Under the pieces are notes generated by a model. It made no database searches, was not told where the DNA came from, and saw only the letters and a list, made by a program, of their open reading frames with translations. Positions 10,278-12,890 of a DNA stretch of 64,000 nt are shown here, piece by piece. Numbering within the stretch: the stretch's first letter is position 1; every line of letters begins with the position of its first letter. Origin of the DNA: Amycolatopsis bartoniae (GTDB taxonomy: Bacteria; Actinomycetota; Actinomycetes; Mycobacteriales; Pseudonocardiaceae). A program made the position numbers and the translations under genes. The stretch lies in contig NZ_JACHWH010000004.1 of NCBI RefSeq assembly GCF_014191255.1, forward strand, positions 1-64,000, written 5' to 3'.

Positions 10278-10781
10278 CTACTCGTGCGGGACCGGGCGGG
10301 CGGGTTGCTCGCCACCGCGGGCCTCGCCGTACGAGCGCTTCGGCACCATCACCTTCCGGCGGAAGGTGCAGACCACCGTGCCGTCCTGCTTGTAGCCCCT
10401 GGTTTCGACGTACACCACACCGCGGTCGTCCTTGGACTTCGACGGCGTCTTGTCGAGCACCTCGGTCTCACCGTAGATCGTGTCACCGTGGAAGGTCGGC
10501 TTCACGTGCCTGAGGGATTCGACCTCCAGGTTGGCGATCGCCTTCCCGGAGACGTCCGGCACGGACATGCCGAGCAGCAGCGAGTAGACGTAGTTGCCCA
10601 CCACGACGTTCTTGCCGAAGTCGGTGGTCTCGCCCGCGTAGTGCGCGTCGAGGTGCAGCGGGTGGTGGTTCATGGTGAGCAGACAGAACAGGTGGTCGTC
10701 GTACTCGGTGACGGTCTTGCCCGGCCAGTGCTTGTAGACCGCACCCACCTCGAACTCCTCGAAATACCGCCCGAACTGCAC
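10278..10781 (-). CDS. MaoC-like (hotdog) dehydratase
   Basis: A 167-residue hotdog-fold hydratase/dehydratase. It carries the FGRYFEEFEVG opening and the hydratase-2 region LTMNHHPLHLDAHYA with candidate catalytic acid and His, then FGKNVVVGNYVYSLLLGMSV. Substrates of relatives are enoyl-CoA or mesaconyl-CoA thioesters. GTG 10781 is chosen over the longer GTG 10814 because an excellent GAGGAG lies 7 bases before it. It starts a leftward group with the DUF2332 and acyl-CoA synthetase genes. Confidence 0.86.
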   Translation of the reverse strand: MQFGRYFEEFEVGAVYKHWPGKTVTEYDDHLFCLLTMNHHPLHLDAHYAGETTDFGKNVVVGNYVYSLLLGMSVPDVSGKAIANLEVESLRHVKPTFHGDTIYGETEVLDKTPSKSKDDRGVVYVETRGYKQDGTVVCTFRRKVMVPKRSYGEARGGEQPARPVPHE

Positions 10782-10839
10782 TGGTTCACTCCTCGAAAAA
10801 GCGGGTAACGCCACACCGGCCGAAAACGACGTGACAGAT

Positions 10840-10858
10840 GTCGAGGAGTACCCTCGAC
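10840..10858. promoter_or_regulatory. Short inverted repeat upstream of corA and maoC
   Basis: GTCGAGG at 10840-10846 and CCTCGAC at 10852-10858 form a perfect 7-bp palindrome with a 5-base centre, in the divergent region between the MaoC gene and the corA leader. It could be an operator or a small hairpin. Nothing identifies a binding protein. Confidence 0.35.
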
Positions 10859-10927
10859 CAACGGAGGCGGTCGCGTCAACGCGACCACCGGCACATGTCC
10901 CCGGCCCGAGGAGGTGAGGAACGCGCG

Positions 10928-10996
10928 ATGAGTAGTGGCGATAGTCCGCTCCCTAGGAAGACCAGCGTTCCCCCGCCGGCCGGGCCCGTTCTCTAG
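10928..10996 (+). CDS. Proline-rich leader peptide upstream of corA
   Basis: A 22-residue ORF starting MSSGDSPLPRK and ending TSVPPPAGPVL, stop TAG at 10994-10996. A Shine-Dalgarno-like purine stretch (GAGGAGGTGAGGA, 10908-10920) precedes the ATG. Five of 22 residues are Pro, with PLPR early and PPP later. The corA start is 85 bases downstream. From memory, the enterobacterial mgtA leader MgtL is also a short peptide with a PLPR motif that makes translation Mg2+-sensitive. The likeness here is in features and placement, not demonstrated homology. Translation of this ORF is unproven. Confidence 0.5.
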   Translation: MSSGDSPLPRKTSVPPPAGPVL

Positions 10997-11033
10997 CTCG
11001 CATCCCCGGGACGCTGGTTCCGGCCGGGCGGAC
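10944..11033 (+). promoter_or_regulatory. Structured corA leader overlapping the leader ORF
   Basis: The RNA can form an 11-bp stem, 10961-10971 with 11008-11018 (ACCAGCGTTCC with GGGACGCTGGT, one G-U pair). An outer stem pairs GTCCGC 10944-10949 with GCGGAC 11028-11033. The left arms lie inside the leader ORF and its stop codon lies in the loop, so a ribosome on the ORF would prevent pairing. This is the layout of a translation-dependent attenuator. No U-run follows, so control by Rho or by RBS access would be needed. It lacks the conserved core of the M-box (ykoK) riboswitch as I know it. Confidence 0.45.
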
Positions 11034-11081
11034 ACCCCCGCACGGCCGTCGTAGCACGCACTACGTCAGCCAGGAGATCCC

Positions 11082-12164
11082 ATGCCTGCGATTCCCTCCC
11101 TCGGCGGCCTGCGCGGCCGCGGCAATGGCCGTGCCCGCGTCCAGCCGCCCATTCCGGTCCCCCTTTCGGCGTACGTCGTCGACTGCGCGGTGTACGTCGA
11201 CGGCAAGCGCGTACCCGGGCGCTGGACGCACGCCGAAGCCATCAAGGAGGTCCGGCGGCGACGGGAGGGGTTCGTCTGGATCGGCCTGCACGAGCCGGAC
11301 GAGCAGCAGATCCAGGGCATCGCGGACATGTACGGGCTGCACGAGCTGGCGGTCGAGGACGCGGTGCAGGCGCACCAGCGGCCGAAGCTCGAACGCTACG
11401 ACGAGACGCTGTTCATGGTGCTCAAGACCCTGCGGTACGTCGAGCACGAGTCGCCCACCACGGCCAACGAGATCGTCGAGACCGGCGAGCTCATGACGTT
11501 CCTGGGCAGGGACTTCATCATCACCGTCCGGCACGGCGCGCACTCCGGGCTGGCCCGCGTGCGCCAGGACCTGGACGAGGACCCGGAGCGGCTGAAGTTC
11601 GGGCCCGCCGCGGTGCTGCACGCGATCACCGACCACGTCGTGGACCACTACCTCGACGTGACCGCCGCGGTCGAGGACGACATCGAGGAGATCGAGACCC
11701 GCGTCTTCGCGCCACGCACGATGGTCAGCGCCGAGCAGATCTACCTGATGAAGCGCGAGGTGCTGGAGCTGCGCCGGGCGGTCGTGCCGCTGGCGGCCCC
11801 GGTCCGGCGCCTCGCGGAAGGTTTCACGCGGCTGGTGCCGGACGAGGTGCGCTCGTACTTCCGCGACGTCGACGACCACCTCATCACGGTCTCCGAGCGC
11901 GTGGCGAACTTCGACGAGCTGCTGAACACGCTCGTCGACGCGACGGTCGCGAAGATCTCGCTGCAGCAGAACACCGACATGCGCAAGATCACCGCCTGGG
12001 CGGCGATCATCACGGTGCCCACGATGCTCGCCGGTGTCTGGGGCATGAACTTCGACTACATGCCCGAGCTGCACTGGCAGTTCGGCTATCCGCTGGCACT
12101 CCTCGTGATCTTCGGGGCGTGCCTGCTCCTCTACCGAATATTCAGGAAGAACCAGTGGCTGTGA
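11082..12164 (+). CDS. corA: CorA magnesium/cobalt transport protein
   Basis: A 360-residue CorA-family Mg2+ channel. A long cytoplasmic domain ends in two membrane helices: the first (ITAWAAIITVPTMLAGVWGMNF) closes with the GMN selectivity motif, the second is YPLALLVIFGACLLLYRIF. The C-terminus is the basic RKNQWL typical of the family. It forms a pentamer in the cytoplasmic membrane and imports Mg2+. It has a long leader with a mini-ORF, and a small membrane peptide follows 43 bases after its stop. Corresponds to mycobacterial corA (Rv1239c, from memory). Confidence 0.95.
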   Translation: MPAIPSLGGLRGRGNGRARVQPPIPVPLSAYVVDCAVYVDGKRVPGRWTHAEAIKEVRRRREGFVWIGLHEPDEQQIQGIADMYGLHELAVEDAVQAHQRPKLERYDETLFMVLKTLRYVEHESPTTANEIVETGELMTFLGRDFIITVRHGAHSGLARVRQDLDEDPERLKFGPAAVLHAITDHVVDHYLDVTAAVEDDIEEIETRVFAPRTMVSAEQIYLMKREVLELRRAVVPLAAPVRRLAEGFTRLVPDEVRSYFRDVDDHLITVSERVANFDELLNTLVDATVAKISLQQNTDMRKITAWAAIITVPTMLAGVWGMNFDYMPELHWQFGYPLALLVIFGACLLLYRIFRKNQWL

Positions 12165-12207
12165 CTCCCCCTTCTCCCTGAAAACCTCGTGAAAGGAGTG
12201 ATGACCC

Positions 12208-12324
12208 ATGTCGCGCTTCCTGACCAACCTCAAGTTCTGGGCCGTCGCCTTCAGCCTGACCTGGATCGCCGTGGTGGTGTTCGTGATCGCCGACCACCCG
12301 GAGTTCGCCCGCGCGGCCCACTGA
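12208..12324 (+). CDS. 38-residue single-pass membrane peptide
   Basis: A short ORF starting MSRFLTNLKFWAV and ending EFARAAH. The central stretch AFSLTWIAVVVFVIA is a clear membrane helix, with basic residues before and acidic residues after it. AAAGGAG at 12192-12198 precedes the ATG by about 9 bases. It sits 43 bases after corA on the same strand, so it could be co-transcribed and act with the channel, but this is only inference. Confidence 0.55.
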   Translation: MSRFLTNLKFWAVAFSLTWIAVVVFVIADHPEFARAAH

Positions 12325-12353
12325 ACCGGGTGGTCGTGCTCGCATCCCGGCCC

Positions 12354-12391
12354 GATCACATTTAGTGTCCGATAGGTCACTTAAAGTGATC
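12354..12391. promoter_or_regulatory. AT-rich 14-bp inverted repeat
   Basis: Left arm 12354-12367 (GATCACATTTAGTG) and right arm 12378-12391 (CACTTAAAGTGATC) are inverted with 12 of 14 positions matching and a 10-base centre. The stretch is notably AT-rich for this DNA. It overlaps the start region of the next gene, so an operator for a dimeric regulator is plausible. Confidence 0.4.
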
Positions 12392-12890
12392 GGGGCGGCT
12401 GCGATGGCGCTGCCACTGGCCGGGACGGCTTCGGCGGCTGCCGCGCCACGCCAGCTCCCCTCGCCGCCGGCGCCCGGCACGGAGTACACGTGGACGCGCC
12501 CGCCACCGGTCTGCCGGTACGGGATCCACCGTGACCGATTTCCGGCTCACCGGGCAGGACCGGCAGGGTCTCGGCCAGATCACCCTCCAGCACGACGACT
12601 CCGGGACCACCCCCGCCAGCCTGCTCCGCAGCGTCTCGCAGACCCCGCCGAAGTGGGAGCAGACGTTGTTACTCGACTTCACCATGACGATCGAGGACCC
12701 GCCGGAACGCCAGAACGAGCCGCTGGTGCTGACCACCAAGGACCCGGGGAAGCTGGTCGGACAGCTCACCCAGTTCCCGCCGCGGGGAGACCTCTACAAA
12801 CTCCAGAACCCGATCGACCTGGTGCTGCCGGACAACCCCGACGAAACCATCGCGAGCATCGAGAAGTTCCCCGTCAAGGTCGCCGGTTAG
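12365..12890 (+). pseudogene. Secreted protein with a single-base frameshift
   Basis: Two overlapping frames together make one sensible protein. The first frame (GTG 12365) gives a signal peptide (VIGAAAMALPLAGTASA, cleavage before AAAP) and a proline-rich linker up to VCRYG. The second frame, open to the stop at 12888-12890, continues STVTDFRLTGQD ... FPVKVAG. Removing one G from the GGG at 12521-12523 joins them into about 174 residues. No family is recognised; the mature part has a TLLLDFTMTI strand and looks globular. Either the gene is inactive, the base count is a sequencing error, or the second frame starts alone at GTG 12531 as a 119-residue protein without export signal. Confidence 0.5.

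Follow-up and report, generated by a model that had tools for sequence, protein, structure and literature searches.

Upstream of the magnesium transporter gene corA in Amycolatopsis bartoniae, a short open reading frame (ORF) overlaps one arm of a hairpin, and we consider it rather probable that the two form a leader-peptide attenuator of corA, analogous to the enterobacterial mgtL and corL leaders but belonging to a separate family. The locus lies in a 64,000-nucleotide (nt) stretch of contig NZ_JACHWH010000004.1 (positions 1 to 64,000 of the forward strand; hereafter the window). The ORF, its reading frame, the conservation of its peptide, the stem and the gene context all come from comparison among related loci. 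A first-pass annotation of the window had already described a 22-codon ORF with a strong ribosome-binding site, PLPR at residues 7-10 and PPP at residues 15-17, and these coordinates and residues proved correct; its hairpin, with the left arm in the ORF and the stop codon in the loop, was confirmed as a helix of 12 base pairs (bp), G-U pairs included. The features of the locus are as follows.

10908 to 10919, + strand: near-perfect ribosome-binding site of the leader ORF, GAGGAGGTGAGG, read from the sequence; its GGAGGTG block is invariant in alignment A1, for which it also served as the anchor in choosing leaders
10928 to 10996, + strand: leader ORF of 22 codons, MSSGDSPLPRKTSVPPPAGPVL, from ATG at 10928 to the stop codon TAG at 10994-10996 (sequence and corA-leader comparison)
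10960 to 10971, + strand: left arm of the conserved stem, GACCAGCGTTCC, within leader-ORF codons 11-15 (covariation alignment)
11008 to 11019, + strand: right arm of the conserved stem, GGGACGCTGGTT, 11 nt 3' of the stop codon (covariation alignment)
11072 to 11076, + strand: corA ribosome-binding site, AGGAG (sequence)
11082 to 12164, + strand: corA, encoding a CorA-family Mg2+ transporter of 360 amino acids (aa) (PF01544, 201.4 bits, 2.5e-59)

The leader ORF ends 85 nt before the corA start. The window CorA carries the GMN motif and scores 197.5 bits against TIGR00383 (NCBIfam corA), slightly below the cut-off of 200.75.

We collected 80 named corA loci by CorA protein homology alone; their labels nearly all name genera of Pseudonocardiaceae. 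A strong Shine-Dalgarno sequence (SD) and a short ORF of 19 to 27 residues precede corA in 75 of the 80. A covariance model, R1, built from 43 corA leaders, found exactly one place in the window's own genome (E <= 1). In a search of 298 genomes of the order, R1 found one copy each in 43 of the 54 genomes of family f1 (Pseudonocardiaceae; this and the other family assignments of searched genomes are inferred). These places precede corA in 42/42 cases fetched (30/30 and 12/12), the 43rd place, in G168, having been left out.

The window peptide is conserved N-terminally and variable in its C-terminal half. By lineage the peptides begin MSSGDSPLPS in Amycolatopsis, MSNDPHPASTSRVL in Saccharothrix and MSDPHGHETATGCSSTRVPSGGV in Actinokineospora, with MSGTDSAPSTNSVPTGRV in Actinosynnema (L042) and a close form in Kibdelosporangium. 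Pairwise comparison of 23 Amycolatopsis-type leaders gave 358 synonymous versus 65 non-synonymous differences in codons 2-9, and 63 versus 560 in codons 11-15, in pairs that share ancestry and are thus not independent. The differences in codons 2-9 include serine coded by either AGT or TCC. Judged by these substitutions, the first codons of the ORF are kept as peptide.

Further into the ORF, the tetranucleotide AGTA is in frame with the start codon in all 72 leaders that carry it, at seven different distances. Outside Amycolatopsis it usually reads AGT ACC, encoding Ser-Thr, and lies just 5' of the left arm of the stem. AGT is a rare codon in such genomes. The window has AGG in place of AGT, and its PLPR arises in this way. 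The first-pass annotation had proposed checking relatives for an ORF with PLPR/PPP and for the stem; the ORF and the stem were borne out, whereas only 3 of 76 leaders have PLPR (window, L003, L024) and only 2 of 76 have PPP (window, L003). Both motifs are, on this count, local, and the common parts are an acidic/proline start and the in-frame AGTA core. The pattern [DE]-x(0-2)-P falls within residues 2-11 of 26/32 distinct corA-ORF starts, and of 30/39 distinct starts of ORFs found behind M-box riboswitches (below), compared to 7.1% of 184 ordinary gene starts, and we therefore regard the acidic/proline start as a real feature.

Covariation supports the stem. Aligning 43 leaders gives pairing in 90.6% of the helix cells (7 bp + 4 bp), falling to 34-51% when one arm is slid, a measure that is favored by the structure having been drawn from the same 43 sequences. 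Double-change cells number 17 versus 5.4 +/- 2.1 in shuffles, with 0/500 as high; less striking is the number of stem pairs having a double change (5 versus 3.3 +/- 1.1, 71/500 as high). Unguided RNAalifold on 51 leaders returned only five consensus pairs, apparently within the conserved stem, and in a separate shuffle test 14.6% of shuffles attained the observed median. On the alignment evidence we conclude that the stem covaries. Its left arm begins at a median of 3 nt after AGTACC in 69 f1 leaders.

Related leaders occur in other actinomycete families. Run on 246 genomes of the class, a DNA pattern for ORFs encoding P-x-S-T matched 53 places, versus 23 for a reversed control. We confirmed 21 of these places upstream of corA (15/21 f33 genomes, which are Streptomyces-like, 4 in f31, 1 in f22 and 1 in f32), a count that excludes about a dozen of the remaining places. 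As the pattern demands AGTACC, this hexamer is partly selected for in the f33, f31, f22 and f32 sets. The pattern misses the window's own leader, and its single match in this genome lies elsewhere (contig C2). Four of 20 further corA upstream regions matched it, all at places already among the pattern matches. The f33 peptides are MDRSRPCSTTRSSRR and variants, those of f31 have eight residues (MSQPPSTN, MSQPPSTR, MSQPPSTG), and the f32 peptide is MRGEPPSTRLL. R1 does not detect the Streptomyces-like versions. Its class-wide matches beyond f1 and the mycobacteria-like family f8 (296 genomes) were only L136 and L138, which we rejected because both are ordinary starts of genes that have a strong SD.

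The f33 stem, GCTCTTCC/GGAAGAGC, has no sequence relation to the GCGTCCC/GGGACGC of f1, and its left arm begins 3-4 nt past AGTACC in 14 of 15 leaders. The 3' side of the right arm has 8-12 T per 24 nt in 13 of 15, compared to a leader average of 16-24% T. Judged by its sequence, the hairpin and T-rich tract look like an intrinsic terminator. By eye, a T-rich tail of this kind was not seen in the window's family.

The proposed magnesium link, which the first-pass annotation drew with the enterobacterial leaders as precedent, gained support beyond what that annotation could have known. Outside f1, R1 matched 8 places in 7 genomes of f8 in the 298-genome search, and all eight lie directly 3' of the Rfam M-box aptamer RF00380 (142-155 bits). 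No M-box sequence was included in the R1 training set. Pieces of about 2 kb around these places contain no corA; judged from translations, five of the loci have a small ORF and an isoleucyl-tRNA-synthetase-like gene as neighbors, and L119 has an NRAMP-like transporter. The f8 ORFs begin MSSSDSP and MSPGDSP and have an SD identical in kind; the window ORF begins MSSGDSP, with proline at position 7.

A reverse search with RF00380 alone gave 60 M-box places from 26 of the 298 genomes. A strong-SD short ORF lies 54-144 nt behind the aptamer in 54 of the 60, a figure that comes without a chance rate; the others are L162, L171, L180, L190, L196 and L197. The leaders of L190, L196 and L197 have ATT at the start-codon position, so that the start is either lost or a rare codon. 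None of the 26 genomes belongs to f1, and RF00380 has no match in the window or in its own genome. In a peptide-profile homology test, 15/43 M-box ORFs (about 2 expected) and 6/14 other corA ORFs ranked within the top 5 against 100 shuffles, which we read as mildly positive support for homology. Judged by SD and start, the corA and M-box leader ORFs are likely of common origin. In one genome two M-boxes lie back to back, one on each strand (G250:C12, 304631-304804 on the - strand and 305049-305222 on the + strand).

The M-box ORFs correspond to an ORF known in Mycobacterium tuberculosis as uORF2, or Rv1805A. According to a 2026 report (PMC12810186), uORF2 lies behind an M-box, is well expressed in lacZ fusions and has a conserved proline 7. 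It is described there as mycobacteria-specific and of unclear role, and its homologue Rv0115A lies away from M-boxes. Our literature search found nothing on Rv1805A beyond this report. The mycobacterial ORFs (Rv1805A, Rv1535A, Rv0115A) share with the corA leaders a strong SD of the AGGAGGTGAGG kind, the start M-S-x-x-D-S-P with proline 7 and an association with Mg2+-related operons, and were retrieved with a profile made from corA leaders. They differ in following an M-box (Rv0115A excepted) and preceding pe20, rv1535 or transporter genes (PMC12810186), whereas here the gene is corA and there is no M-box. As the corA leader ORF has a uORF2-type start and SD, the family appears to be wider than that report states.

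From these comparisons we infer translation, pausing, the direction of the switch and its readout, and, from gene context, Mg2+ as the signal. Ribosomes would initiate on the short ORF from its near-perfect ribosome-binding site. The acidic residue and prolines near the start, followed by P-x-S-T or a local variant, would then slow the ribosome, most likely in an Mg2+-dependent manner. A ribosome with Ser-Thr in its center covers about 12 nt downstream. This stretch corresponds to the left-arm core in f1 and f33, which starts about 3-4 nt beyond the S-T codons, and pausing at that point would thus keep the hairpin from closing. With fast passage, or without a ribosome, the left arm could pair with the right arm beyond the stop codon, and the fold present would determine corA expression, in a terminator-like manner in f33 and perhaps through Rho in the window's family. 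Because the f33 hairpin is terminator-like, pausing would mean that corA is on, and because corA encodes an Mg2+ importer, the sensible sign is pausing at low Mg2+. In this way the leader ORF probably tunes magnesium uptake via the ribosome.

Several results weigh against a pausing attenuator. The 174-nt window RNA is not unusually stable (z +0.66; 150/200 shuffles fold as well), and the case for the stem therefore rests on comparison and not on one sequence. Per-leader stem significance is modest, with p <= 0.05 in 21/69 f1 leaders and 2/21 others. The leader ORF is absent at 5 of the 80 corA loci (L069, L073, L075, L077, L081), AGTA is missing in 4 of 76 leaders (the window itself, L003, L004 and L022), and R1, under strict filters, has no match in 11 of the 54 f1 genomes. 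Outside f1, 29 loci were fetched by CorA homology and 28 examined, a cut-off locus (L224) being excluded; a related ORF lies within 450 nt of corA at only 3 of the 28 (L201, MVTTSSSPCSTSRS..; L207, MDPSRPCSTDHP..; L215, MSSGDPSST..), all found without the DNA pattern. The best helix of each of the six leaders from f31, f22 and f32 begins 6-20 nt past AGTACC without reaching significance (p 0.055-0.995), which limits the fixed spacing from AGTACC to the arm to f1 and f33. A terminator scan of 10500-12500 in the window gave no terminator-like site. In L121 the leader ORF crosses the corA start out of frame and, by eye, the hairpin region is missing; this locus resembles a natural deletion of the switch. 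Access to the corA ribosome-binding site also shifted inconsistently when leaders were folded with or without a ribosome (40/70 leaders versus 30/70). We compared three states in 70 leaders (ORF free, RNA free from codon 9 on, ribosome at the stop codon); the mean unpaired fraction of the corA site was 0.28, 0.26 and 0.25, and differences above 0.2 numbered three each way. Masking of the corA ribosome-binding site as the readout was thus not supported, having no consistent direction.

The strongest competitor, which we nonetheless judge unlikely, is an MgtL-like drop-off, a mechanism of the kind that the first-pass annotation put forward. In that scheme the acidic/proline start would shed ribosomes early at low Mg2+, the freed left arm would form the hairpin and corA would be favored, while at high Mg2+ full translation would block the hairpin and reduce corA. 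The enrichment of acidic-plus-proline N-termini fits this scheme, as does precedent: E. coli MgtL is reported to cause dissociation at EPDP in low Mg2+, leading to mgtA transcription (PMC11282234), and corL translation is inverse to corA expression (PMC11552253). The f33 hairpin with its T-rich tail points the other way, since with a terminator drop-off would turn corA off; it better fits a paused ribosome over the left arm. In addition, the in-frame AGTA is kept past the acidic part, and a ribosome at the stop codon leaves the window corA ribosome-binding site more accessible (0.47) than drop-off does (0.16), which is the wrong direction.

It is improbable that the ORF is instead a functional small protein, or a mere translated spacer or coupling device without sensing. 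The strong SD and the peptide-level conservation of the first nine residues would suit a protein, and a protein role has been proposed for the mycobacterial homologue (PMC12810186). However, the second half varies freely save for stem pairing, the length ranges from 19 to 27 residues in corA loci to only 8 in f31, and the S-T core keeps its distance from the left arm in f1 and f33 despite their different stems. The least probable reading is an amino-acid attenuator that senses a lack of charged tRNA (proline, or serine/threonine with the AGT codon) and not Mg2+: the ORF often contains prolines, AGT is strongly retained as a codon and Salmonella mgtP responds to charged tRNA-Pro (PMC8092293), but there is no conserved single-codon run of the trp/his type, PPP is confined to two of 76 leaders, the genes that follow, both here and in f8, are corA or lie behind M-boxes, and proline supply, a signal that the first-pass annotation had also put forward, found no specific support.

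The pausing attenuator shares its principle with the enterobacterial leaders mgtL, corL, mgtQ and mgtP, which are likewise short ORFs 5' of Mg2+ transporter genes, where RNA folding and translation compete (PMC11282234, PMC11552253, PMC8092293). MgtL and mgtQ also have an acidic/proline start, mgtQ has competing stems (PMC8092293) and corL acts with Rho (PMC11552253). The short ORF before a transporter gene that marks MgtL and CorL is found here by sequence at 75 of 80 loci and under peptide-level selection, with its translation predicted. The differences are the phylum, a peptide core of P-x-S-T and a different stem. The M-box (ykoK, RF00380) likewise governs Mg2+-related genes and in f8 lies directly 5' of the related leader ORF, but is absent from the window's genome and from f1 among the 26 M-box genomes. 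On sequence grounds we class the element as a leader-peptide attenuator of an Mg2+ transporter, MgtL/CorL-like in principle, outside that RNA family and with a start like that of mycobacterial uORF2.

No Rfam family reached its gathering score in the window, the presence of the published corA motif among the Rfam models being unchecked; reported occurrences of that motif are confined to Gammaproteobacteria and metagenomic DNA (PMC6429828). For 10800-11100, Rfam at E <= 5 returned nothing meaningful, the best match being a microRNA family at 22 bits against a cut-off of 90, and at gathering score six f1 loci and nine relatives were also without matches. A literature search, outside which most subscription papers fall, returned no actinobacterial corA leader peptide, magnesium uORF or conserved corA RNA like this among the matches listed; the excerpts of PMC11109978 do not mention corA, and those of PMC13236596 mention neither magnesium nor corA.

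More tentatively, these leaders may form a single family of Mg2+-transport leader peptides that spans the actinomycetes, has a P-x-S-T core and works through a ribosome that stays at S-T and so masks the hairpin's left arm. The family would lie 5' of corA in Pseudonocardiaceae, in Streptomyces-like genomes and in further families, and be combined with the M-box in mycobacteria, where Rv1805A would act in cis as a sensor of the ribosome type instead of as a protein; we find this plausible but hold it loosely. If true, one operon class would take two readings of Mg2+, one through the riboswitch and one through the ribosome, and the conserved mycobacterial uORF2 would gain a testable role. Mg2+-linked leader peptides have so far been described for enterobacteria, and a separate actinobacterial family would suggest that the principle is old or has arisen repeatedly. 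It would also define a control element for corA of antibiotic-producing actinomycetes, and the P-x-S-T core would be a new candidate pausing peptide.

Within f1, the leader ORF of genus g3 (L129 and L132, also L125 and L127) is enlarged by PLST-type repeats, such as SNPLSTPSPLSTG, that repeat the S-T core. The record of L031 names Rhodococcus rhodnii NRRL B-16535, but its corA leader is of Kibdelosporangium type; the assembly is probably mislabelled or mixed.

The window holds further features around the leader.

10849 to 10854, + strand: promoter-like -10 element TACCCT, giving a putative transcript start about 70 nt upstream of the leader ORF (by eye)
10944 to 10951, + strand: GTCCGCTC, which may be the left arm of an additional, outer helix (by eye)
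11026 to 11033, + strand: GGGCGGAC, possible partner of 10944-10951 (by eye)
11050 to 11065, + strand: small hairpin CGTAG-CACGCA-CTACG, directly 5' of the corA ribosome-binding site (by eye and minimum-energy fold)

Of 76 leaders, 54 have a loose GnGTA..T element similar to TACCCT 30-170 nt 5' of the ORF; a sigma-70 scan of 10500-12500 found no promoter match. The putative outer helix GTCCGCTC/GGGCGGAC is visible by eye in several Amycolatopsis. An enoyl-CoA-hydratase-like gene (10278-10814, - strand; best NCBIfam match 138 bits, under the cut-off) is divergent from corA, and its start adjoins the leader promoter region. Immediately 3' of corA, a 38-aa ORF with an SD (12208-12324, + strand; MSRFLTNLKFWAVAFSLTWIAVVVFVIADHPEFARAAH) resembles a single membrane span and matches no Pfam family. 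Relatives of it occur in 69 of the 80 corA loci (tblastn E <= 0.01), directly behind corA among the matches listed, and it is possibly an unannotated small partner of CorA.
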